In this document: positions 28,807 through 44,753 of the stretch, piece after piece
Layout of the letters: each line of letters begins with the position of its first letter
Numbering within the stretch: position 1 is the stretch's first letter
Source of the DNA: Bacteroidia bacterium
GTDB lineage: Bacteria > Bacteroidota > Bacteroidia > JADZBD01
Assembly (NCBI GenBank): GCA_020852255.1
Contig: JADZBD010000008.1
Span: forward strand, 1 to 64,000
Length of the DNA: 64,000 nucleotides
Direction of reading: 5' to 3'
Made by a program: the position numbers and the translations under genes
Notes under the pieces: model-generated
Seen by the model: the letters and a program-made list of their open reading frames with translations, nothing else
Databases searched by the model: none
What the model was told of the DNA's origin: nothing

Positions 28807-30657
28807 TCAGGGATGAAAACGCCTCAGCCAGCGATGAAGTGCGATCAGCGCCCAGATGCGGTTGTATAAATAGGCGTTCCCCGGTCTTCGGTAGCGTTCA
28901 AGTAGTTCCTGTACCGCCTCGTACTTCACCATGCCGTAATGGAGTATGACTTCCCGCGCAAGGTATTTTTGAATGTATTCTTCCCATCGTTCCTTCAGCC
29001 AGCTTTCCAGCGGAAGAGCAAAGCCCTGCTTCGGGCGGCTGAAAAGCTCTGCGGGAAGATGGCGGAAAAGAATTTTTTTCAGAATGTATTTTGTTTCGCC
29101 GTTCCGCCATTTCATATTTTCCGGCATGCGGTCTGCCAGTGCAATCACCCGTGGATCCAGGTAAGGCACCCGTACCTCCAGGCTGTAATTCATGCTCGCG
29201 CGATCTACTTTTACCAGCAGATCGTCCGGTAAATAATACCTCCGGTCAAAACGGCTTTGCTTTACTGCGGCGGGCCAGTCCGGTTGTATCTCATTCAGAT
29301 AATCACGGAACCAGCCTTCCCTTACGCCCGGCCCGGTGGTGGTGGCGCGCAACAGTTCTTTTTCGGAAAAGAAGTATTGTTCCTGTGAGAAAATGTGTCC
29401 TTCAGTAAAAGTGTCGCGGTTGAAATCAAGCAATTCCGCCACGCGTTTGTTTCGGCTTCCTCCGGAAAGGCGCAGGAGCGATCGAAGCGCAGGCCTGGAG
29501 AAACGCAGCAGGGGATGTGCCATCCGCCTGGCCCATTTATAAGTACCGTATCCCATGAACAGTTCGTCGCCGCCCTCACCGGAAAGAGTAACCGTAACGG
29601 AATCTTTCGCCAGCTTGCTGACCATCAGCGTGGGTATGGCACTGGAATCTGCGAATGGCTCTCCGTAAATGTCGGTCACCTTATCAAACAACTCCGTGGC
29701 ATCATCCATTGAAACAATAAAGGGGTGGTGATCGGTACCAAGTTTTTCTGCAACCCTGCGGGCGTACTCTGACTCATCGAAGCGTGATTCCCTGAAACCG
29801 ATAGAAAACGTTTTTAGCGGTGCGGTACTCACCTTTGTAGCAAGCGCGGTAAGTAAACTAGAATCGATTCCCCCGCTCAGAAAAATACCGGAAGGCACAT
29901 CGCTTTGTAATTGCAGACGAATACTGTCCAGCAACGTTTCCTCCAAACATACTCCTTCCGGGTCCGCTCTCATTGTATTATTCCCGGAAACCAAAGGTTC
30001 GAAACGGTTTTCGGTTAGCTGACGCCCGTTGAATTCAAGATAGTGTCCGGGCCGGAGCTTATAAACGTTTCTGTAAATGCTCTGCGGAGCCGGAATGTAT
30101 CCAAGGTGAAGGAATAAGGGCACCACCGCTTTGTTTATCCGAAGCGAAAGTCCGGGTATATGCCGAAACGCGTTGATCTCAGATGCAAAATATAAGGTTC
30201 CGGAATGATCGTAATGAAAATACAGGGGCTTTATACCGCCGCAGTCGCGGGCAAGCAGGAGGGTATTCTCTTTCCGGTCGTAAATGGCCAGCGCAAACAT
30301 TCCGTTGAGCATCGGTAACGCGTCCACTCCGAGTTTTGCGTAAAGTTCCAGAAGTGTTTCTGTATCGTTTCCGCTGCGGAGCGGCCTGCCGGAGAGGTGT
30401 TCCTGCTGAAGTTGTTTGTAATTGTACACTTCTCCGTTATAAACCATCACATATCTTCCGCAGGACGAGTGCATGGGCTGATTACCCGCGTCCGACAGAT
30501 CCAGTATCCGCAATCTCCGGTTGCCCAGTCCTGCGTTTTTTTCAATGATTACCTCCCCGGCATCTGGTCCGCGGTGAAGGAGTGAATCATTCACACGGCG
30601 AAGTACATCCTCCGTCAGAGGATGATGTTCCGAATAATATCCGCAAATTCCGCACAT
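28807..30657 (-). CDS. asnB: Asparagine synthase (glutamine-hydrolysing)
   Basis: A 616-residue amidotransferase. Starting at 30657, the chain opens MCGICGYY, placing the nucleophilic cysteine at position 2 of the glutaminase domain; the frame from 30684 would mask it. The synthetase domain has the ATP-binding SGGIDSS (near residues 259-265). It is the last gene of the glycan operon and overlaps the stop of the upstream glycosyltransferase by 1 bp. Homologues in polysaccharide clusters are often thought to amidate a sugar acid rather than make free asparagine; that role here is inference from position. Confidence 0.93.
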   Translation of the reverse strand: MCGICGYYSEHHPLTEDVLRRVNDSLLHRGPDAGEVIIEKNAGLGNRRLRILDLSDAGNQPMHSSCGRYVMVYNGEVYNYKQLQQEHLSGRPLRSGNDTETLLELYAKLGVDALPMLNGMFALAIYDRKENTLLLARDCGGIKPLYFHYDHSGTLYFASEINAFRHIPGLSLRINKAVVPLFLHLGYIPAPQSIYRNVYKLRPGHYLEFNGRQLTENRFEPLVSGNNTMRADPEGVCLEETLLDSIRLQLQSDVPSGIFLSGGIDSSLLTALATKVSTAPLKTFSIGFRESRFDESEYARRVAEKLGTDHHPFIVSMDDATELFDKVTDIYGEPFADSSAIPTLMVSKLAKDSVTVTLSGEGGDELFMGYGTYKWARRMAHPLLRFSRPALRSLLRLSGGSRNKRVAELLDFNRDTFTEGHIFSQEQYFFSEKELLRATTTGPGVREGWFRDYLNEIQPDWPAAVKQSRFDRRYYLPDDLLVKVDRASMNYSLEVRVPYLDPRVIALADRMPENMKWRNGETKYILKKILFRHLPAELFSRPKQGFALPLESWLKERWEEYIQKYLAREVILHYGMVKYEAVQELLERYRRPGNAYLYNRIWALIALHRWLRRFHP

Positions 30658-31556
30658 TATTTTCCGAGCAGGATTCGTTTGCAAATAACCAGTGACCGGG
30701 TATGCATAAGAATAGCAGGCCTGCGGCGCACCGCTTTTAAAAAGTACTTGACGGATAATTTTCTGAATCCTGCGAGTGCCAGGTGAAGCGATACATAGGA
30801 ATCAGCGAAGGCTTCGATCTGAGGCTGATGCGGACCATAAACCTCACGCACTTTTTCATCTGCGAAGGCGTACTGAAGCGCAAGATCCTTCCTCCGGTAA
30901 AGTTTAACAGGTTCCGTATGGATCACACTTCTTCCTCCGTGATTAATCATGGTGGATGAAATGCGGGGGTCCACTTTGATGCCGCAGTTGGCTACTACCC
31001 GGAGCCAAAGCTCCCAATCCTCGCTACCCGACAACTCGCGGTCTTCATTGAATTTGAATCGGAGTGCGGTGTCCTTCCGGAGAAAAGCGCCGATACAGCT
31101 GAGCGGATTTCCTGTGATCAGCAGCCGGGTATCATCGTTCTGTAAACCGGAGGAATCAAAAATAACTTTTCCTTCCGGCTCACGGATCTCGTACGCTACG
31201 TGCAGAAAAGCAGGAAAGTTAAAATTCCGGACAGATTCTGCTGCGTTTTCGAGCAGGTCGGGATAGGGAAGGTCATCGGAATCAAGAAAAGTGATGTAAT
31301 CGCCCTTCGCAAGTGCAGTGCCGGCATTGCGCGCCGCTCCGCGTTCCGAATTGGTGATGCGATGATAGCGTAGACGGGCGTCTGCTCTTTGTCTGACCAT
31401 TTCTTCCGTACCGTCCGACCCGCCGTCATCCACTACAATCGCTTCATATTCCTGATAGGTTTGGGCTGCAAGGGCGTCAAGGGTGTACTCGAGCAGCACC
31501 TTGCGGTTGAAGGTGGGAATGATGACAGAAAAACTGCAGGTTCGCTCAGAGCTCAT
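30657..31556 (-). CDS. Family 2 glycosyltransferase
   Basis: A 299-residue GT-A enzyme: FSVIIPTFNRKVLLEYTLDAL at the N-terminus, the nucleotide-binding VVDDGGSDGT and the DxD-type LDSDDLPYPD (near residue 92), and SGSEDWELWLR as the acceptor-side block. It has no membrane helix, so it likely acts on a lipid-linked glycan at the inner face of the membrane. The start at 31556 overlaps the previous gene by 11 bp; ATG codons at 31559 and 31571 are alternatives. Confidence 0.9.
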   Translation of the reverse strand: MSSERTCSFSVIIPTFNRKVLLEYTLDALAAQTYQEYEAIVVDDGGSDGTEEMVRQRADARLRYHRITNSERGAARNAGTALAKGDYITFLDSDDLPYPDLLENAAESVRNFNFPAFLHVAYEIREPEGKVIFDSSGLQNDDTRLLITGNPLSCIGAFLRKDTALRFKFNEDRELSGSEDWELWLRVVANCGIKVDPRISSTMINHGGRSVIHTEPVKLYRRKDLALQYAFADEKVREVYGPHQPQIEAFADSYVSLHLALAGFRKLSVKYFLKAVRRRPAILMHTRSLVICKRILLGK

Positions 31557-32661
31557 CATAAAACATTTCAAGTTCCGAGATCATTCGTTCTGTACTGAAA
31601 TTCTTCACGCTCTCCGGAGCCTGCCGGGAAATCCGCTGGTATTGGTTCCCGTCGCGGTATAATTGCAATACAGCCGTGGCAACGGCCCCCGCATCCCTGA
31701 AGGGAACCGCTATTCCGTTTTCCCCGTCGCGCAGCACTTCCGTTGCAATGCCTGAACGGGTGAATACGCCCGGTACACCGGCAGCCATTGATTCAAGATA
31801 AACCTGTCCGAATGCTTCGGCCTGCTCGTCCACCGGGATATGTACAAACACATCAAAAAGGGAATACATCGCACGGGGATCCGGGTCAAATTCAAGTATT
31901 CGCCAGGAACTGCGGGGTAATGTTCCCAGTATTTTCATGTATTCTTCTTTCTTGTCGCCGCCGGTATTCCCAAGTAAAAGTACGGCCTCCGGGAGTTCCT
32001 GAAGGATGATCCGGAATGCTTCAAAAATATAGGTGATTCCCTTCCAGTCTGTAAAACGCGAAATCACTCCGATTTTCCACTGATCGTCCTTCAAACCGTA
32101 TTTTTTCATGCGATCTGAACGGATTTCAGGATCACGTATGAAATCAACTAATGTCATTCCATGATGAATGACGCGTATCTTTCCGGGATCTGCTCCTTCC
32201 CGGTTGCGCAGAACATTAGCAACATTTTCTGAGACGGCAATGATGCGGTGGGATGCCGCATTGATCTTCAGATCGTGTTTAACGGCACGGGGAAAGTACA
32301 CGTGGTGAAATGTGCTGTGATGGCGTGTGTGCAGGCGGCACGGAATTCCTGCCATCCTCCCGGCCAGTAAACCAAGATAGGATGCTTCAAATAGCTGACA
32401 ATGCAGAATGTCGGGCTGTTTTTTCTTCAGAAGCCGGTAGATCTTATAACCTGCAGAAAGAAGGTCTTTTTTTCCACGATAGGTAATGAAGGTAACAGGT
32501 ATTCCGTTTTTTTCCAGGATGGAAGGCAGCGGCCCGGGCTGTTCATGCAGCAGGATCACTTCCTGCCGGTATTTAGCGGCTGAGAGGCCTGAAAATGCCG
32601 CTTCGATGGTCCGCGACCGGTTAATATGGGAAATGATATGTATGATATTTCGTCTGTTCAT
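31546..32661 (-). CDS. Family 4 (GT-B) glycosyltransferase
   Basis: A 371-residue retaining GT-B enzyme. The C-terminal nucleotide-sugar domain has GVISRFTDWKGI, VFVHIPVDEQAEAFGQVYLE and SMAAGVPGVFTR, with the usual EAFGxxxxE pair. The donor is not known. Its ATG overlaps, in an ATGA arrangement, the stop of a short frame that encodes the C-terminal end of the broken FkbM gene; that fits former co-translation with an intact FkbM protein. Confidence 0.92.
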   Translation of the reverse strand: MNRRNIIHIISHINRSRTIEAAFSGLSAAKYRQEVILLHEQPGPLPSILEKNGIPVTFITYRGKKDLLSAGYKIYRLLKKKQPDILHCQLFEASYLGLLAGRMAGIPCRLHTRHHSTFHHVYFPRAVKHDLKINAASHRIIAVSENVANVLRNREGADPGKIRVIHHGMTLVDFIRDPEIRSDRMKKYGLKDDQWKIGVISRFTDWKGITYIFEAFRIILQELPEAVLLLGNTGGDKKEEYMKILGTLPRSSWRILEFDPDPRAMYSLFDVFVHIPVDEQAEAFGQVYLESMAAGVPGVFTRSGIATEVLRDGENGIAVPFRDAGAVATAVLQLYRDGNQYQRISRQAPESVKNFSTERMISELEMFYDEL

Positions 32662-33072
32662 GTTAGCGGCAGCCCCAGGTGGCGGGCGCCTTCTTTTTTA
32701 AGCAGGAGAATGTTACGGAAACAGCTCTTTCGTATCTTTTTAAAAGGAAGGGGCTCCGAGCGTTCATCCAGATCGAAATAAAGATAATCATAAGGCGCGA
32801 GCATGTGTTCCGGTTCCTTTCCTCTGGCTGCTTAACGATCCAGACTCGCTGAACCTATCCCAGCTTTCCCAAAAGAGCTGATTTTCCAGCACATAACCGA
32901 AATGCCGCATGCGGAAGGATATTTCTTCTCCCGGCATTTCCACCCAGAATACACCGTGAAAATGAAGATGACAGTACACCTTCTGATCCGGATAAAAGAG
33001 ATCCCGGAGAAGGGTAAAAACAATCTTTTTCCCCGGAAGAATGGCATACGCTTTTCGGAGAAATGCCTTCAT
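32658..33072 (-). pseudogene. FkbM-family methyltransferase remnant, internal deletion
   Basis: Two pieces of one FkbM-type gene in different frames. The first, from the ATG at 33072, encodes the typical N-terminus with FHGVFWVEMPGEEISFRMR, then ENQLFWESWDRFSE, before running into unrelated residues and a stop near 32788. The second frame, read from about 32830 to the stop at 32658, encodes PYDYLYFDLDERSEPL and RNILLLKKEG, the typical C-terminus of this family. The S-adenosylmethionine-binding middle, roughly 100-150 residues, is missing. The junction is near 32825-32850. The gene start overlaps the upstream glycosyltransferase stop (ATGA) and the second frame's stop overlaps the next gene's start, so the operon was built around an intact gene. 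Loss of O-methylation of the glycan is the expected effect, by inference. Confidence 0.8.
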
Positions 33073-33992
33073 GAATTAAATCCTTTAAAATGATAGACTC
33101 CCAGAAGCAGATTTATCCCCCGGAAATACAAGGGATCGAGCAGGCGAAGGGGAGGTATAGCCCTCACCGCAAATAAAAGCAGGCGGGGAGAGAGTCCGAA
33201 TACACGATATAGCAATTTCTTTCCCGCTCCGAATTCCGGAACGGCATCCGGGATGCCTTTGAGGACGGCAATTTTTCTTGTCACGGCCGACCTGCGTTTA
33301 CGCTCCAGCCAGGGAAGGGGTTCAACCCGGTCTGCTTCATTATGGTAAATCATGTTCAGGGGATCAATGTAAAGTTCCAGTCCCGCCTTGCTCACGCGAT
33401 TAGCGAAATCGCGGTCTTCAAAACCGGCAAATGGGAAATCGGTATCATACCCACCGGCTGCCATAAACAGATCTTTGGCCATAGGAAAATAACTGCTGGC
33501 GATGTGTTCACAGCGGAAGGGCGTGTGGTCATCCCAGTTCAGATCATGCCTCCACCCTTTGAGTGTAGTGAATCCGTTCCGGATCAGGAACCGGCCGAAG
33601 CGGGTTCGCACGAGGCGTTTACTCAATTCGGGAGGATAAATCCAGTTCGGGCCATAAACGCGACGCGGATAGAGTTGAAGTAGCTCCCAGGTGCGTTGGA
33701 GATTTTCCGCTTTTACCAGGTGGTCATCATCCATGAACAGCAAATGTGTGCCACTTGCAGCGTAAGCTCCGGTATTTCTGGCTCCGGCTACTCCCTTACC
33801 GCTGTGGTTCAGCAGTTTTATCCCGGACAAACTGCCGGCCTGCAGCGCAGGTTTTTGGTCAGGATCATCGTTGACTACGATCACCTCTGTGGGAAAGGAG
33901 AGTTTTTTCAATTCGGGTAAGAGCGCTTCCAGCGTTTGATGCAGGATCTGTTCTCTCTTATAGGTTGGAATAATGATGCTTAGCCCGTTCAT
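33069..33992 (-). CDS. Family 2 glycosyltransferase
   Basis: A 307-residue GT-A enzyme with LSIIIPTYKREQ at the N-terminus, EVIVVNDDPDQKP, the DxD-type FMDDDHLV, and FAGFEDRDFANRV as the ED acceptor motif. A weakly hydrophobic C-terminal segment (residues about 270-300) may touch the membrane. It overlaps both neighbours by 4 bp in ATGA arrangements. Donor and acceptor are unknown. Confidence 0.9.
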   Translation of the reverse strand: MNGLSIIIPTYKREQILHQTLEALLPELKKLSFPTEVIVVNDDPDQKPALQAGSLSGIKLLNHSGKGVAGARNTGAYAASGTHLLFMDDDHLVKAENLQRTWELLQLYPRRVYGPNWIYPPELSKRLVRTRFGRFLIRNGFTTLKGWRHDLNWDDHTPFRCEHIASSYFPMAKDLFMAAGGYDTDFPFAGFEDRDFANRVSKAGLELYIDPLNMIYHNEADRVEPLPWLERKRRSAVTRKIAVLKGIPDAVPEFGAGKKLLYRVFGLSPRLLLFAVRAIPPLRLLDPLYFRGINLLLGVYHFKGFNS

Positions 33993-35689
33993 CTCATCAT
34001 TTTTTTAAGTTCCCGGAATAATTCCACGCCCGCCGGCTGATCAGAAATATTCAGAATGCCCGGCCGCAGAAGCGCTATTTCTTCACGGGATGGGAATGAT
34101 CCTTTTTTCCAGGCTTCAAACATCTCGGCAGGATTGCGGAATGTACGTGAATAGCCTGCACGGTGCAGCAGACTGTATTGTGAAATACGGTCTTCAAACG
34201 GATTCAGGTAACAAAATGGCTTTTGCATATAGAGTGCTTCGAGCCCAATGCTGGAATTCTGACAGCATACCAGGTCCGAATCGCTGATAAGCTGCAATAA
34301 GCGGTCCTGCGACTCCTTCCCTACGATGATTGTATTTTTATAACCTCCGGAACGAATGGTATCCTCCGCGATGGTGTCGGTTTCCGAAGGATGTTTTTTA
34401 ATCACCAGCTGAAAACCCTCCTTCTGGCAACAGTCTGCGAGCTCACGGATGAGAAGTTTTTTCTGGTCCTGATAGCCTGCGTGCGTTCCTGACCAGGTGC
34501 TGGCGAAAAGTAGTTGGCGTTTTTTTTCCTTGTTTTTAACTGGTGGATCCGCTGTATCAAAACCCGTGAAACCAAGCGGAACATGTTCGGGGGTAGGATC
34601 TTTTCTTCTTTTCCATAGCTGAACGCTTTCAGGACCTATGCAAAACCGTTTACTGAAGGCGATGCCCGGTTCCATCCAGAAAGCATCATCGGTGAAAAGG
34701 CTGTATTCTACATATGCTGCGGGAATTCCCCGGAAACGGGCAGTGTCGGCAAGCCAGCGTCCGGGTTCGCCCAGGGTGTATGTTAAAACAAGATCGGGCC
34801 GGATGGTATCAAGCACCACCGGCATCCAATGATAATTCAGCAGCGTGGCTTCTAAAAAAGAATCCATTGCTTCCGGCAGAGGAAGCGGGATTTGCCTGGA
34901 TAATTCTTTGCGAAAAAATTCCGTTGACAGGGGATTGTGCGTCTTGAAATCCGAGTACTCATAAAAACGGATGCCATGTTTTCGGAAGAGCGCAATTTCT
35001 TTTTTTGCCGGCGATCCGATCAAACTGGCGTAATGGAGCACCACAAGTTCCGTTTCTTTGTCGGAGGAAGCGATTTCATAAAACCGTCGGAACAGCCGGT
35101 TGTTGAAAACAGGCGACTGGGTCAGAAAAAGAATCCTGCGCTTTCCTTTCTGTACTGCCGGCACGGCCGGATGAAGTGCCTTACCGGCAAGGCGGACAAT
35201 ATTTTTCTTTAACGGGCTTTTTTTAGCGCGGGTGCTCTTTAAACCCGGACTCAGCCTGCAATGAGGATCATAAAACCCGGCTGGAAAGAAATGAAAACGT
35301 TCTCCCATGCTTAACTCCGCTGTCAGGGAGGGCAGGCTCAATATTTTCCGGAATACCTGCAACTGCTCCCTGAGTATGAATGCGTCCAGAAAAGTTTCTT
35401 TCAGCGCGTAATGTAAAAGTGCTTTAGCAGTGTAAGTCGCCGGCTGTTTTGCAAGTACGGGCGGAATAAATTCCTTAGGCATACGCAGTTCCCGCAGGAA
35501 GGTATCCATCCATCGCAGCAAATGTTCGGCCGCCTTCAATTCCACACCGGCTTGTGCTGCGTTGAGAACGGAAACGTCGGCGCCAGCGCCCCGCGCCTTC
35601 AGCACCTGCTCTTTCCGCATCAGCAGGACGAGGAGCGCATCGGACCGCTTAAATTTTTCCGGATCGTCTGTGATCAGCCAGTGTTTCAT
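33989..35689 (-). CDS. GT-B-like capsule/surface polysaccharide protein
   Basis: A 566-residue soluble protein. Residues about 1-170 are a helical region unlike any family I can name. From about residue 188 the chain resembles GT-B proteins of surface-polysaccharide synthesis: RRILFLTQSPVFNN, PDLVLTYTLGEPGRW, a central FASTWSGTHAGYQ, VIKKHPSETD, and a C-terminal SSIGLEALYMQKPFCYLNP. The last blocks resemble the nucleotide-binding half of CDP-glycerol and capsule transferases. The specific reaction is unknown. The start overlaps the end of the flippase gene by 41 bp, unusually long for this operon. Confidence 0.7.
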   Translation of the reverse strand: MKHWLITDDPEKFKRSDALLVLLMRKEQVLKARGAGADVSVLNAAQAGVELKAAEHLLRWMDTFLRELRMPKEFIPPVLAKQPATYTAKALLHYALKETFLDAFILREQLQVFRKILSLPSLTAELSMGERFHFFPAGFYDPHCRLSPGLKSTRAKKSPLKKNIVRLAGKALHPAVPAVQKGKRRILFLTQSPVFNNRLFRRFYEIASSDKETELVVLHYASLIGSPAKKEIALFRKHGIRFYEYSDFKTHNPLSTEFFRKELSRQIPLPLPEAMDSFLEATLLNYHWMPVVLDTIRPDLVLTYTLGEPGRWLADTARFRGIPAAYVEYSLFTDDAFWMEPGIAFSKRFCIGPESVQLWKRRKDPTPEHVPLGFTGFDTADPPVKNKEKKRQLLFASTWSGTHAGYQDQKKLLIRELADCCQKEGFQLVIKKHPSETDTIAEDTIRSGGYKNTIIVGKESQDRLLQLISDSDLVCCQNSSIGLEALYMQKPFCYLNPFEDRISQYSLLHRAGYSRTFRNPAEMFEAWKKGSFPSREEIALLRPGILNISDQPAGVELFRELKKMMR

Positions 35690-37115
35690 TTGTTCTGATA
35701 GTGTTTCTGATGCCGAAGAAGGAGAGGAGGGCCGTTAAGAGCGGGAGCGAGAGCAGGATGTATGCGAGCAATGGAGCTGCCTGTGTGAAAGTAATAACCG
35801 TGCCGGCGATAAGCGATAGAATAAAGAATGCTGCACAAAAAGCATGAAAGGTGCCGAAATGAAATCTGAAATCGGAGACGCTCCGGTACAGGTTAATGGC
35901 GGGCAGCAACTGGGCCAATCGGGCGGCAAGAGAGGAAAATGCCGCTCCGGCAATTCCCAGCACAGGAATCAGTACCAGGTTGGCACTCACTGAAACCACC
36001 CCCATAATGAAATTCAGTGCGGGTAATCTTCTGGTCTGCCTGAAAAAGAAAACAGGTTCGGAATAGGCGATGTAGTAAAACCGTGGCACAAAACCGGCCA
36101 TCAGAAGCGGTACAATACCGGTTGCAGGCAGGTATTCCTCTCTTATAAAGGCGTGAATGAGAGGGTAGGCCAGGAGGCCCAGCGCACCGGCTCCCAAAAG
36201 AATGAGTGATCCTTTGAAACGGTAAATGGTGTGTATGGCCCTGCTGTGTGCATGATAACCTTTTTTAAAGAGATCGTAAATCGCAGGATAGGTAGCGTTT
36301 TGTATGGCAGTGATAAACGTGTCGCAGATACCGCCAATAGCCGCCGCGAGATTGAATGCGGCAAGCAGCGTAAGATTGAGTTCGTTTTCTATTACAATGC
36401 GATCGAATGAAGTGAAAATGATCCCGAACAGCACATAGGGAATTACAGGCAGGGCATAGTTCATGGAAGAAGGCAGGAATCGCCGGTCGAAACGTATACC
36501 TGTTTGTACCAGAAGGTAGATGAGGAAGAGAACCGTAACGGCAATGGTGGACCAGGTTTTAAATTCTACGACGGTTAGCGCATTTCCGTGCAGAGATAGA
36601 ATAGCATAGGCTTCCGCACCGGTGGTAAGCAGCAGCTGTCCGAGGGAGAAGAGGGCAAATGTTTTCATCCATTGAGCAGTGCGGAAATAGGCATTCATAA
36701 CAGAAATTAAGGAACAGGCGAGCGATTGCAGGAGAACGAACATTCCGAAATCACTGAAGTTAAACCTTTCCGATTTGAAGAGTAAGCGGAAAGCCCAGTC
36801 GCCGAAGGGGAAAAAAACAGCGGCGATGATCAGAGAAACAATGATCACAAAGAGCAGGATGGTGGAGACATAGGTGTTGAGCAGGCGCCGGTTCTTCCGG
36901 TAGTCGAAATAGTGACGTATCAGTGAATGTTCGAGGCTGAGCGTCATGAAAACCGGAAAGATAGCCGTGAGCAGTGTATAGAGCGAAATCAGCGCGAACT
37001 CCTCCGGAGGCAGGTAAAGTAAAAACACCGGCAGGAGGATCACCCGTGAGAGAGCGGGCAAAAGTCCCAGCGCGGTATACACGGAAGTTCCGGTTATGAT
37101 CTGCCTGATATTCAT
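35649..37115 (-). CDS. Oligosaccharide flippase (Wzx-type, MATE/MVF fold)
   Basis: A 488-residue membrane protein with about 12-14 predicted helices. It matches the polysaccharide biosynthesis/flippase family: a short N-terminus leading into helix 1 with YTALGLLPALSRV, LPPEEFALISLYTLL, and charged loops between helices. Such proteins move lipid-linked oligosaccharides to the periplasmic face. In this operon it would export the glycan built by the glycosyltransferases. It overlaps the preceding gene by 4 bp and the next by 41 bp. Confidence 0.9.
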   Translation of the reverse strand: MNIRQIITGTSVYTALGLLPALSRVILLPVFLLYLPPEEFALISLYTLLTAIFPVFMTLSLEHSLIRHYFDYRKNRRLLNTYVSTILLFVIIVSLIIAAVFFPFGDWAFRLLFKSERFNFSDFGMFVLLQSLACSLISVMNAYFRTAQWMKTFALFSLGQLLLTTGAEAYAILSLHGNALTVVEFKTWSTIAVTVLFLIYLLVQTGIRFDRRFLPSSMNYALPVIPYVLFGIIFTSFDRIVIENELNLTLLAAFNLAAAIGGICDTFITAIQNATYPAIYDLFKKGYHAHSRAIHTIYRFKGSLILLGAGALGLLAYPLIHAFIREEYLPATGIVPLLMAGFVPRFYYIAYSEPVFFFRQTRRLPALNFIMGVVSVSANLVLIPVLGIAGAAFSSLAARLAQLLPAINLYRSVSDFRFHFGTFHAFCAAFFILSLIAGTVITFTQAAPLLAYILLSLPLLTALLSFFGIRNTIRTNETLADHRRSGKI

Positions 37116-38814: not shown

Positions 38815-39750
38815 TTATTTCTTTTCCGTGATCTCCTCAATGATATAATTCGGACGCTGACGAGCGGCATCCAGCGCCCGCCAGACATATTCTCCCACAA
38901 TCCCGATCGCAATCATCTGGAAAGAAGAAACGAAGAGGACTACAATCATGAGCGATGACCAACCTTCCACGGGTACCATCCCGCTGAATTTTGCGATAAC
39001 GATAAATAGGGCATAGCAGAGTGCAAGGAAACCGAGAATAAGTCCCATCGCTGAAATGAGGCGTATCGGAAAGAAGGAGAACGAAACAAAGGAATCAATA
39101 AACAGTTTGAGTTTTTTACGAAAGGTCCAGCGCGAGGTGCCCTTTTCCCTTTTCCGGCGTGTATAAGGAATGCAAACATATTCATAGTTCATCCAGGCCA
39201 GCAGGTAAATCTGATTCGTATTCTTTTCGTTGATGCGTACAGCCTGTTCCCTCAGCTGACGGTCGAACAGCACCAGGTCAAAACCTCCCTCGGGTATATT
39301 CGGAAGCGCCAGCTTTTTCATGAGCGAATGATAAATCCCTGAAAATATTTTTGTGGTCACTCCTTCTTCCCGGTCTGTGCGGTTGGCGATCACGAGCTTC
39401 GTTCCCTTTTTCCAGTGTTCGTACATTTTCGGGATGAGTTCCGGCGGATCCTGGAGATCAGCCGTGAGAATGATCGTGCAGTCGCCCGTGGCGTGATTCA
39501 TCCCGGCGAGAATGGCATTGTATGATCCGAAATTTCCGCTGAGCTTAATCACACGCACAAGCTCCGGATGGTCACGATGAAATTCCTTCAGCAACGGAAG
39601 GGTCCGGTCCTTGGAACCGTCATCCACCAGTATCACCTCCATTTCCACCTGGTCTTTCATGCATTCGCGCAGCGCAAGAATTTCCCGGCGGGTATCGGGA
39701 ATATTTTCTTCATTGAAGTAACAGGGAATGATAACAGACAGTTTATCCAT
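38815..39750 (-). CDS. Polyprenyl-phosphate glycosyltransferase (GtrB/DPM-type)
   Basis: A 311-residue family 2 enzyme with two C-terminal membrane helices (near residues 230-255 and 265-290). Blocks are [26 protein letters not shown], and the DxD-type [12 protein letters not shown], with [11 protein letters not shown] before the helices. GtrB-like proteins load a sugar onto undecaprenyl phosphate, making a donor for periplasmic GT-C transferases such as the candidate encoded next. The ATG at 39750 begins with the GT motif; the frame from 39852 adds 34 unlikely residues. It overlaps the fdtB-like gene by 8 bp. Confidence 0.92.
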
Positions 39751-40852
39751 TGAAGAACGATTTAATAGCGGTAATGATGTATTCCTGTTCTGGTTCTGCA
39801 AGAGCTTCATGACAGGGAATGCTGAGGCATCGGGCAGGGATACGTTCAGCAACCGGAAAGGATCCCTCCGGATAATTCAGAAACTCCAGGGCTTGTTGCC
39901 GGTGAGGCGTTACCGGATAGTGTATCATTGTGCCAATTCCTTTTTTATTCAGGTGCTCTTGAAGTTCTTTTCGTTTGCCGGTCCGGACTACATAAAGATG
40001 ATATGCGGATTCGCAGTGTTCAGCAAGAGCAGGAAGTTCCAGATCGCCGGTATCTTTTAGGGCGCGGTGGTAGGTGCCGGCAATTTTTTTTCTCCGCTGG
40101 TTGGCATCCTCAAGCCCACGGAGCCTGATCCGCAGAAAAGCGGCCTGCATTTCGTCCAGACGTGAATTAACTCCCGTAACCGTGTGTATGTATTTTTCTT
40201 TTGCCCCGTAATTTCTGAGCCGGCAGATACTGGAATATAATTCGGGATCGGAAGTGGTTACAGCACCCCCGTCACCCAAAGCACCCAGGTTTTTTCCGGG
40301 GTAAAAGCTGGTGGCACTGATTGCCCCGAAGGATCCTGTTCGTTTGTTTTTATACCGGGCTCCCTGCGCCTGCGCGTTATCTTCAATTACAAAAAGATTG
40401 TTTCTTTCTGCAAAAGCGAGAAGCGGTTCCATCTCGCAGGATTGTCCGTATAAATGCACGGGCAGGATCGCCTTTACATCGGGTCGCATGGCTTCGGATA
40501 GAAGCGATGGATCTAAATTCATGGTGTCGGAACGTACATCTACCGGCAGTGGCACAGCGCCGGCCTGAATCACCGCAAGATGGGTGGCAATAAATGTGTG
40601 TGCAGGCACTATCACACGGTCACCCTTGCCAATTCCCAGTGCCCGAAGTGCCAGCACCAGAGCGTCCAGCCCGTTCCCCGTTCCCGCGCAATAAGAACTT
40701 TCGCAAAAAGTTGCGAATTCCTTCTCAAAGGATTCAAGTTCTTCTCCGAGAATGTAATGCGAACGATCCAGTACCTTGAGAAAGGCTGTTTCCAGTTCCT
40801 TGCGCAGGGGCCGGTGAATGGCGGCAAGATCGAGAAAGGGGATGTTCTTCAT
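39743..40852 (-). CDS. fdtB: DegT-family sugar aminotransferase, FdtB-like
   Basis: A 369-residue PLP enzyme of the DegT/DnrJ/EryC1/StrS family. The PLP lysine is in [15 protein letters not shown], preceded by [13 protein letters not shown] and followed by [15 protein letters not shown]. Placed with a 3,4-ketoisomerase and an acetyltransferase, it most likely adds the 3-amino group to a dTDP-3-keto-6-deoxyhexose. Whether the sugar has the galacto (Fuc3NAc) or gluco (Qui3NAc) form cannot be decided here, so the gene symbol is provisional. Its start overlaps the acetyltransferase stop (ATGA). Confidence 0.85.
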
Positions 40853-41409
40853 TTTGGCCTGAGAACTCCGTCTGTTTCAATATAACTTTCCCCATTTTCC
40901 GAGGTCCATACCCTGTCTGATCCTGGAATCAGTTTCTTCCCGTCGCGTCCGACCCATGCGCGGAAAACAGCAGGATTTCCAAATACCATTGCGAAATCCG
41001 GCACATCGCGCGTTACCACGCTTCCCATACCTACCATGGCATACTTTCCCACGCGTACACCGGCGCGAATACTTGCGTTGGCGCCCAGGCTGGCTCCTTC
41101 CGCGATAAATGTTTCTTTCAGATCGAAATTCTTATTACCGCTGCGCGGAAGTAAGTCATTGGTGAATGCCACCCCGGGCCCTATGAATACATGGTCGGCA
41201 ATGTTTACGCCGGACCAGATATGTACCCCGCTTTTAACAGTCACGTGATTCCCGATGCGTACATTTCCTTCAATAAAGCAATGATCGCAGATATTGCATT
41301 CATTTCCGATGGCTGCACCGGGTAATATGTGCACAAAGGCCCAAATCCGTGTGCCCTCACCGATATGATCGGTTTCAACAATGGCCGAGGGATGAATTTT
41401 TTTACCCAT
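40849..41409 (-). CDS. fdtC: Left-handed beta-helix N-acetyltransferase, FdtC-like
   Basis: A 186-residue protein made of hexapeptide repeats ([51 protein letters not shown]). This is the left-handed beta-helix of acyltransferases; NDLLPRS near the middle is the usual loop in sugar 3-N-acetyltransferases such as FdtC, QdtC and WbpD. It would use acetyl-CoA to acetylate the 3-amino sugar made by the neighbouring aminotransferase. It overlaps the ketoisomerase gene by 8 bp and the aminotransferase gene by 4 bp. Confidence 0.88.
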
Positions 41410-41812
41410 TCAGTTTCCGGAATACTTCGCGGTCGCGGATATAATCTTCCTGAACGAAAGGCTGGGAGGCCAGGCACAGCAGCACACTGTGATGTTCGAA
41501 AAAGAGTGTTCTCCAGTATCGTTTTGGAATAAAAAGCCCCTGGTCGGGTTTGGTCAGTTCAAAAACATTTCGCTCGCCGTTCACGGCCTCAAGTTCGATT
41601 TTCAGCTTTCCCGAAACGGCAACCACCACTTGTTCCAGCGTATAGTGGGCATGGTGACCCCTTGTGATCTCCTCCGGAGTGAAATAGGTCCAGTATACCC
41701 GTTCTACACGAAAGGGCACTTGTTTTCCGTATTCAGCCACGGAAATGTATCCTAGTTCAGTGGAACCGATTTTATCGAAACGGATCAGATAGGGTCGTTC
41801 GAAGTCAGCCAT
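41402..41812 (-). CDS. fdtA: dTDP-6-deoxy-hexulose 3,4-ketoisomerase, FdtA-like
   Basis: A 136-residue cupin of the FdtA/QdtA/WxcM-like family. The active-site block TRGHHAHYTLEQVVVAVSG (near residues 51-69) carries the catalytic histidines, and GLFIPKRYWRT and LLCLASQPFVQEDYIR complete the fold. The reaction moves the keto group of dTDP-4-keto-6-deoxyglucose from C4 to C3. It is the first gene of the glycan operon. rmlA and rmlB, which supply the substrate, are not in this window. Confidence 0.88.
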   Translation of the reverse strand: MADFERPYLIRFDKIGSTELGYISVAEYGKQVPFRVERVYWTYFTPEEITRGHHAHYTLEQVVVAVSGKLKIELEAVNGERNVFELTKPDQGLFIPKRYWRTLFFEHHSVLLCLASQPFVQEDYIRDREVFRKLNG

Positions 41813-41888: not shown

Positions 41889-43436
41889 ATGAATTTCCAA
41901 ACCCGGTTGATGGGATCTGTATCTTCAGGTATTCGGAATTACTTCTTCGGGATCACCATCCTCTTTTCGTTTGTTTCTTTTCTTCTCAATGGCTGGAACC
42001 GGCATGTTATTCGCACCGAAGGCAACACCACGGCTGCCAACGCTTCACTGCGCGGTGAGTGGATGATCCTGAATGCCGATGATGAATATTACCTCAGCCC
42101 GGCGCAAAATCTTCTTGCTTCCGGCGAGTTGCGCCGTTCTCCGGCTGCCGGAAACGGCAGTTACTTTCGCAGGGTTCCTGTTTACCCGCTCATGCTTTCG
42201 GCATTTCTCGCGGTTTTCGGGCAGCAGACGCCTTTGTTTCTTCATCTTTTTCAATGTCTTCTCTTCGGCATTTCTGTGGGCTTGCTGTTTCTGATTTTGT
42301 GCCGGTGGGATCTTCCGCTCCGGTGGTCATTCACTGCGGCTGCTCTTTATGGTCTGTGGCCTTATACTGCTTTCTGGAGCGCGTTTACACTTACGGAGGC
42401 GGTTACACCGGTTCTGACGATGGCTTACCTCTGGTTTTTACAAAGTATTTCGTCCCATCCTTCTCGAAGAGGAAACTGGACCTGGGCCGGAGCGATATTG
42501 TCACTTCTGGTTTATACCCGGCCTTATATGATACTGGCGGCCCTGCCTTTGTTGATTTTGCTTTTTACCTCGCGCGCTCAGTTCCTGCGTCTGCTGCCGG
42601 CCGCCCTGTTGTTTCCGGTGATCGTAAGTGGTTCATGGCTCTTCCGCAATAAAATCCAAACCGGAGAATGGGTCCTCTTCGAACAGGCTTTTCATCCGCA
42701 ATCGCTGGACCGGATGAAACCGGAATTCCGTGGCATGTTCACCCTGGCCAAAGCCTGGGGTGTTACCGGACGGGAATTTAATGCGATGCATCAGCCCTTT
42801 TATATTGCTACCGTCGATGCGGATACTACATATGATTTTCCCGGAGAACTCATCCGGCATATTCCAAAGGATGTATTCACCGCCGACTCCGCCGGGTTGC
42901 TGAATGCCTTCCGTGCACACCGGAACGCGCTAAGGGAACAGGCGCCCTATTACCATGCGCTGCATGCAATGCCTGATGTGTACATGGCCTCTTCCATAGA
43001 GGCAGAAGCGGCCTACCGTAAAGCAGTGAGAACACTCCGCAACCGCAGTGCCTGGAAATACAGCATAAAACCCCGGTTGATGTATCTGCAGCGATTGATT
43101 TTTCATTCGGGGAGTGCGCATGTATTCGCCTTGCAGAAGGATGGTATTGTTTCGTCGGGATGGAAAGCGATCTTTTTCGCCGTGCATGCTTCCTGCTTCC
43201 TTCTCCTGATTCCTCTGTGCTTTTTGTTGCACCGGTATTCACGGATCCCCGGAATGATGCTTTCTGTACTGCTGGCGGCTGTTTTCTTCTCCTGCATTCA
43301 TCTGGAAATCGAGCAACGCTACATGCTTCCTTTTATGCCGCTGCTCTATGCCGGTTGTGTGCTGGGAATGTATGTGGCTGGTAACAACTTTTTCAGTCGC
43401 CACAGGAAAGAATCAGATGCCCAGCTTTTTCCCTGA
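41889..43436 (+). CDS. GT-C-type membrane glycosyltransferase (ArnT/PMT-like)
   Basis: A 515-residue polytopic membrane protein with about 9-11 helices. After helix 1 comes a periplasmic loop with ADDEYYLSPAQNLL and RRVPVYPLML, the acidic pair and layout of GT-C transferases of family 39/ArnT. The central helices (LYGLWPYTAFWSAFTLTEA) and a long C-terminal loop followed by three helices fit the same fold. It probably transfers a sugar from a polyprenyl-phosphate donor, possibly the one made by the GtrB-like protein; that is inference. A near-match -7 box, TATCTTTA, lies at 41880-41887. Its 3' end overlaps the convergent gene by 24 bp. Confidence 0.75.
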   Translation: MNFQTRLMGSVSSGIRNYFFGITILFSFVSFLLNGWNRHVIRTEGNTTAANASLRGEWMILNADDEYYLSPAQNLLASGELRRSPAAGNGSYFRRVPVYPLMLSAFLAVFGQQTPLFLHLFQCLLFGISVGLLFLILCRWDLPLRWSFTAAALYGLWPYTAFWSAFTLTEAVTPVLTMAYLWFLQSISSHPSRRGNWTWAGAILSLLVYTRPYMILAALPLLILLFTSRAQFLRLLPAALLFPVIVSGSWLFRNKIQTGEWVLFEQAFHPQSLDRMKPEFRGMFTLAKAWGVTGREFNAMHQPFYIATVDADTTYDFPGELIRHIPKDVFTADSAGLLNAFRAHRNALREQAPYYHALHAMPDVYMASSIEAEAAYRKAVRTLRNRSAWKYSIKPRLMYLQRLIFHSGSAHVFALQKDGIVSSGWKAIFFAVHASCFLLLIPLCFLLHRYSRIPGMMLSVLLAAVFFSCIHLEIEQRYMLPFMPLLYAGCVLGMYVAGNNFFSRHRKESDAQLFP

Positions 43437-44753
43437 ATATTTCTCGTAATACATACGAAGCACAAAAAGTGCGGAAAGATAGAATGGAATGCTCGGAATC
43501 CGGAGACGTACCAGTGAGCCGAAATTGGAAGTGGCCAATCCTACCGAGAAAGCAAAAAACAATGCAAACAATACGGAAAAGAGAAGAAGCGGATCCTGGA
43601 AAATATATTTGAAGAACCGCCCCACTCTCAGTTTGATCAGCAGCAGAATCGTGAGCAACAGCAAATAGGTGTTCTCCAGCGCAGCAAGGAGCATCACTAC
43701 GTTTTTAACATCCAGCAGCGTAGGACGGAACATTCCGGCAAACACCGCTTTGTGGGAAACACCGAGTATACTGGGAATATTATCATCGAATTCACCGATG
43801 TTGAAGGAGTTTCCCTGGTAATGCTCCGACTGCTGGTCGCGCTGTGAAACCACCGCTTTTTTAAGAATATTATCAAAACGGTATTGCCCCAACTGTTCCT
43901 GCATGCTGTCAAGGATCAGGTAACCAAGTGCCAGACCGATTATTACCAGCATGGGTGTAACCATCATTCGCAGGGAACGGTTTTCAATGTAGGCTGATAT
44001 ATTTCCGACATACCAGATCGTGGAACCCGGCAACACGGCGAAGAAAATATACGGTTTAATGGCCAGCATCAGGTAGGAGCTGAACAGCAGCATGAACGTA
44101 TTGAAGAACCGGATCCTGCGCCGTATAAATACCTCGTGAAAAGTGTAGGTATACCACCCGATGGCTCCGATCATCAGTGTGTCTTTCAGAATACCGGAAC
44201 CCCAGAAAACAACCGATGGAATATAAAGAACAGCGATCGCCAGCTGATCGGAGATGGAAGGATAATAGGAATAAAAGAAGCGGAATAGTTTCCAGATCCC
44301 GGAAAAAGATGCAGCCGCCAGCAAAATGGCAGTGGTAATAAAACTGTGTCCGCCCAAAAATGCGAAGACCGTAACAATCTTAACTACAAAAAACGAATGG
44401 TGATCATGCCGGTAAGCGGGCCAGTCGGTTTCTGTGTTAAAGTAGGAGAATACTTCGGGTCCGGGTGATCTGAACATCACTTCAAGAAAAGCGGTGAAAT
44501 TCTGATCGGCCAGTCTCCACATGGGTTTGGTGCTGTCGAAGTAGAGCGTGGAATCTCCTCCGTTATAGTAGAATGTGTAGATGAGACACACGGCGATGGC
44601 TCCCACCGTTTTTGCCAGCAGGCCTAATGTGAAGAAACGGTATTCGGGGTGCTTTTCAACCTTCGTGCTTTCATACCATTTGGCCCATACCAGCAGAAGA
44701 ATCAGGTAAAGGGGAGGCAGTAACAGATCAATAAGCTGATAGTAATCCCGCAT
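43413..44753 (-). CDS. Polytopic membrane protein, possible O-antigen polymerase-like
   Basis: A 446-residue protein with about 10 membrane helices and a periplasmic loop at residues about 60-110 with NGGDSTLYFDS. The central segment VFWGSGILKDTLMIGAIGWY and the layout resemble Wzy-type polymerases and related proteins next to glycan clusters, but no specific family can be named. It lies beside galE and the GT-C gene, so a role in the same glycan is likely by position only. A -7 box TAATTTTG is 12 bp upstream. Confidence 0.6.
   Translation of the reverse strand: MRDYYQLIDLLLPPLYLILLLVWAKWYESTKVEKHPEYRFFTLGLLAKTVGAIAVCLIYTFYYNGGDSTLYFDSTKPMWRLADQNFTAFLEVMFRSPGPEVFSYFNTETDWPAYRHDHHSFFVVKIVTVFAFLGGHSFITTAILLAAASFSGIWKLFRFFYSYYPSISDQLAIAVLYIPSVVFWGSGILKDTLMIGAIGWYTYTFHEVFIRRRIRFFNTFMLLFSSYLMLAIKPYIFFAVLPGSTIWYVGNISAYIENRSLRMMVTPMLVIIGLALGYLILDSMQEQLGQYRFDNILKKAVVSQRDQQSEHYQGNSFNIGEFDDNIPSILGVSHKAVFAGMFRPTLLDVKNVVMLLAALENTYLLLLTILLLIKLRVGRFFKYIFQDPLLLFSVLFALFFAFSVGLATSNFGSLVRLRIPSIPFYLSALFVLRMYYEKYSGKKLGI

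Follow-up and report, generated by a model that had tools for sequence, protein, structure and literature searches.

A probable FkbM-family methyltransferase pseudogene with an internal, frame-changing deletion in a surface-polysaccharide operon of a Bacteroidia bacterium

Why do two glycosyltransferase genes in a tightly packed surface-polysaccharide operon stand 407 bases apart, and what occupies the space between them? The window considered here, a stretch of 64,000 nucleotides from a Bacteroidia bacterium (assembly GCA_020852255.1, contig JADZBD010000008.1), carries a minus-strand run of such genes from 41812 down to 28807, in which the genes at 33992-33069 and 32661-31546 are separated by an interval with no frame of at least 100 aa. 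A survey of the spaces separating frames of 100 aa or more ranks it second in size among the internal gaps of the window, after one of 551 bases at 1014-1564, and shows no other large gap in the operon. The initial annotation saw in this interval an FkbM methyltransferase gene reduced by internal deletion. The analysis presented here makes it very probable that the locus is a pseudogene of an FkbM-family methyltransferase, with an internal deletion that changed the reading frame.

Two ends of one gene within the operon

The operon opens with genes for an FdtA-like isomerase, a hexapeptide acyltransferase, and a DegT aminotransferase (39743..41812, minus strand), likely an acetamido-dideoxyhexose cassette, which we take to be of the Fuc3NAc/Qui3NAc type. 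Two long frames adjoin it, at 41889-43436 on the plus strand and 43413-44753 on the minus strand, neither having a Pfam match at E 1e-5. Further along the minus strand come a polysaccharide flippase-like protein (35649-37115), a surface-polysaccharide protein with weak family matches (33989-35689), and an intact family-2 glycosyltransferase (33069..33992), which is followed, after the locus in question, by an intact group-1, GT4-like glycosyltransferase (31546..32661), a second family-2 glycosyltransferase (30657..31571), and an asparagine-synthase-like amidotransferase at the operon end (28807..30684). On either side of the locus, the genes of the window have open frames and even spacing. The overlaps with both neighbors are also preserved in the DNA, as had been proposed, each as an ATGA motif, with the upstream gene at 33072-33069 and, at the stop of the C-terminal frame described below, with the downstream gene at 32661-32658.

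Between these overlaps, at 33072-32658 on the minus strand, lie the two ends of one FkbM-type methyltransferase gene, in differing frames. The N-terminal remnant frame (32788..33072, minus) encodes 94 aa and matches positions 8-85 of a 299-position profile built from 35 intact homologues, with 76.0 bits, whereas the C-terminal remnant frame (32658..32831, minus; 57 codons and a stop) matches positions 247-297, with 28.8 bits. Both ends thus resemble a single full-length family in the correct order, which points to FkbM ancestry, and the 161 positions between them (86-246), containing nearly the whole Methyltransf_21 domain, are absent from the locus; on these points the initial annotation, which had placed both family ends in different frames around a missing AdoMet-binding middle, is borne out. 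Homology to intact relatives spans approximately residues 1-75/79 of the N-terminal frame, the remaining 15-19 residues being out of frame, and begins at about residue 4 of the C-terminal one. In BLASTP, both remnants match one and the same homologue (L003; E 4.7e-19 for the N-terminal remnant and 8.7e-9 for the C-terminal one, which aligns with its C-terminus), and the C-terminal frame also matches the C-termini of L004, L005, L006, L007, and L009 (E 2.7e-6 to 0.008). No Pfam or NCBIfam match was obtained for the 94-aa frame, and a Methyltransf_21 or other AdoMet-binding domain is thus missing at the locus.

The locus measures 415 bases versus approximately 0.88 kb expected, which gives a net loss of about 0.46-0.5 kb, and, since the frames of its two parts differ, the net number of bases lost is not divisible by three. 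Residues strongly conserved in the relatives after an FW pair and before the C-terminal piece are mostly missing here, and the break is therefore placed at approximately 32822-32847 (minus strand), where some 13-25 bp align with neither part and about 161 codons are missing; the range of 32820-32860 suggested earlier for the junction is consistent with this placement. At the junction, no direct repeat could be seen that would account for the deletion, a repeat search having given only weak two-copy matches, and neither inverted repeats nor a simple-repeat tract of note were seen at the site. As a possible source of the junction sequence, the window offered an 11-base exact match, which was not above those of 30 control stretches. 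Plasmid records scanned with a 418-bp stretch at this site gave no match.

Intact relatives and comparable gene order

When 84,980 genomes were scanned using an alignment of the N-terminal portion, 39 related loci emerged, 36 of which have frames no shorter than 252 aa. These intact relatives are mostly of about 290-305 aa and do carry the part missing here, with the Methyltransf_21 domain located within it (residues 94-238 and 93-249 in two of them). The expectation that full-length homologues should exist was therefore correct, while the size proposed for them, 230-280 codons, was mostly too small. The short frames of the remaining three loci (71, 85, and 64 aa in L047, L048, and L054) end at a stop or frameshift with the middle domain still readable behind. 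These broken homologues, at L047:4007, L048:238, and L054:3998, represent decay or draft-sequence errors. A short form shared across species, which would have counted against the deletion reading, was looked for and found at none of the 39 loci, and a deletion of this kind is likewise absent from all of them, including the three broken ones. The short form therefore does not represent a conserved protein; as far as this collection shows, it is a private loss rather than a family of small proteins. In a separate search of 98 other genomes, the first 79 residues of the N-terminal frame found matches in eight, the best at 44% identity; one weak match among these (L010) was judged unrelated, its surroundings being devoid of FkbM features. 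The profile combined six of these eight loci, with L008 and L010 excluded, and the 39 loci minus ten, namely the three broken ones, two at contig ends (L036 and L049), a twin of L022 (L023), and four distant ones (L051, L052, L053, and L055).

The remnants resemble a mainly Bacteroidota subfamily of the FkbM family (PF05050, TIGR01444), whose members of about 290-305 aa carry the PF05050/TIGR01444 domain in their middle, but they differ from it in that the domain itself is gone. Members of this subfamily occur at comparable places elsewhere, in L030 and L046 with the missing part present. In the Bacteroidota draft genome L030, the order is GT2b, FkbM (299 aa), FkbM, sulfotransferase, GT4, and GT2a, so that the glycosyltransferase immediately before an intact FkbM gene is related to the upstream one of the window, and those further downstream are related to its two downstream ones (34.7, 35.8, and 46.2% identity for GT2b, GT4, and GT2a, respectively). 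The two tandem FkbM-domain genes of that genome (L030:3974-5730) share an ATGA overlap and precede the sulfotransferase. In L046, an intact copy stands directly before a relative of the GT4 gene (38.2%), in a cluster that also has relatives of the Fdt-like genes, and in L018 a relative of that same glycosyltransferase stands directly before the intact copy. L030, L046, and L018 are distant organisms, and what their gene orders show is a common neighbourhood rather than the ancestral arrangement in this very strain. The search within the order covered two genomes, and in the nearest relative compared, the one other genome of the same family, which belongs to another genus, the gene is absent.

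Conservation was counted on 34 homologues, L003 being removed as a twin of L019 with the same length and score. Across residues 1-68 of the N-terminal part, all 16 columns conserved at 80% or more are kept, as are 23 of 28 at the 60% level, and both remnant frames are still open. These kept residues and open frames fit a recent loss, as had been suggested, although they would give it no date. The C-terminal part, with few columns, keeps 5/7 at 80% or more and 11/16 at 60%, and the former count is weak evidence as an indicator of age.

Alternative readings of the short locus

An assembly artefact, in which the gene is whole in the cell but about 0.47 kb of it was left out by the assembler, or a minority strain variant was chosen, seems unlikely. 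The genome is a draft of 28 contigs, and the finding that 3/39 related loci from public drafts are broken too shows either decay or sequencing error to be frequent in genomes of this kind. Nevertheless, the flanking genes of the window are regular, as described above, the 418-bp stretch is present only once in the assembly, and no middle fragment of the gene was found elsewhere in it. Moreover, a clean loss of this size requires a repeat or mixed strains, and no such repeat is seen, although one copy of it could have gone with the missing segment and so escape notice. That the missing segment is kept elsewhere in the genome and able to return, as in phase variation, is hardly credible. Surface-glycan genes frequently vary. 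In Vibrio cholerae O1, loss of RfbT methylation is reported to switch the serotype (PMC9929944). However, PF05050 has just one further match in the genome, to a distinct, intact protein on contig C9, which covers only profile positions 92 to 262, so that the missing middle is not elsewhere in the assembly, and the site shows neither inverted repeats nor a simple-repeat tract of note.

A working small protein built from the N-terminal region of the family alone is very improbable. The 94-aa frame is open and retains the conserved residues, but among the 39 loci only the three plainly broken genes give a frame this short, its terminal 15-19 residues are out-of-frame sequence, and it is followed immediately by the corresponding C-terminal remnant.

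Consequences for the operon and comparison with known systems

According to the pseudogene reading, an ancestral gene of approximately 290-300 codons would have stood between two surface-polysaccharide glycosyltransferases and would have lost about 0.46-0.5 kb internally, with a shift of frame. Since the remaining frames contain no AdoMet-binding domain, there is strong reason to infer from the sequence that the locus would yield no methyltransferase. The intact neighbors probably still assemble the glycan, presumably minus the methyl group that this enzyme would have added. The idea that the event left operon translation undisturbed is not supported in that form, since the N-terminal frame stops at 32788, approximately 126 nt ahead of the next start at 32661, and its ribosomes therefore do not reach the downstream ATGA. 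The next gene could be expressed via its own initiation or via a restart at the ATG of the C-terminal frame (32804-32802), leading into the old ATGA overlap; coupling through this lower overlap would need such a restart, for which this ATG is a candidate.

Loss of this kind is ordinary for surface-glycan loci. It is quite improbable that selection favored the deletion because it alters the glycan, whether as an antigen or as a means of escaping phages, with the rest of the operon kept and a restart at 32804 maintaining translation of the next glycosyltransferase. The locus is a further case of piecemeal loss among surface-polysaccharide genes and is mainly of use as a correct pseudogene annotation, and the remnant could also be tracked as a marker among related strains.

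A familiar parallel is provided by the rfbT/wbeT mutants of Vibrio cholerae O1 (Ogawa to Inaba), in which varied mutations are reported to abolish the O-antigen methyltransferase and alter the surface antigen (PMC3727987, PMC9929944). RfbT belongs to another, distantly similar family, its Pfam family PF05575 matching two intact FkbM homologues weakly. The likeness would lie in the loss of a methyltransferase acting on a surface polysaccharide and, should selection prove to be behind the loss in the present operon, this would parallel the known change of serotype.
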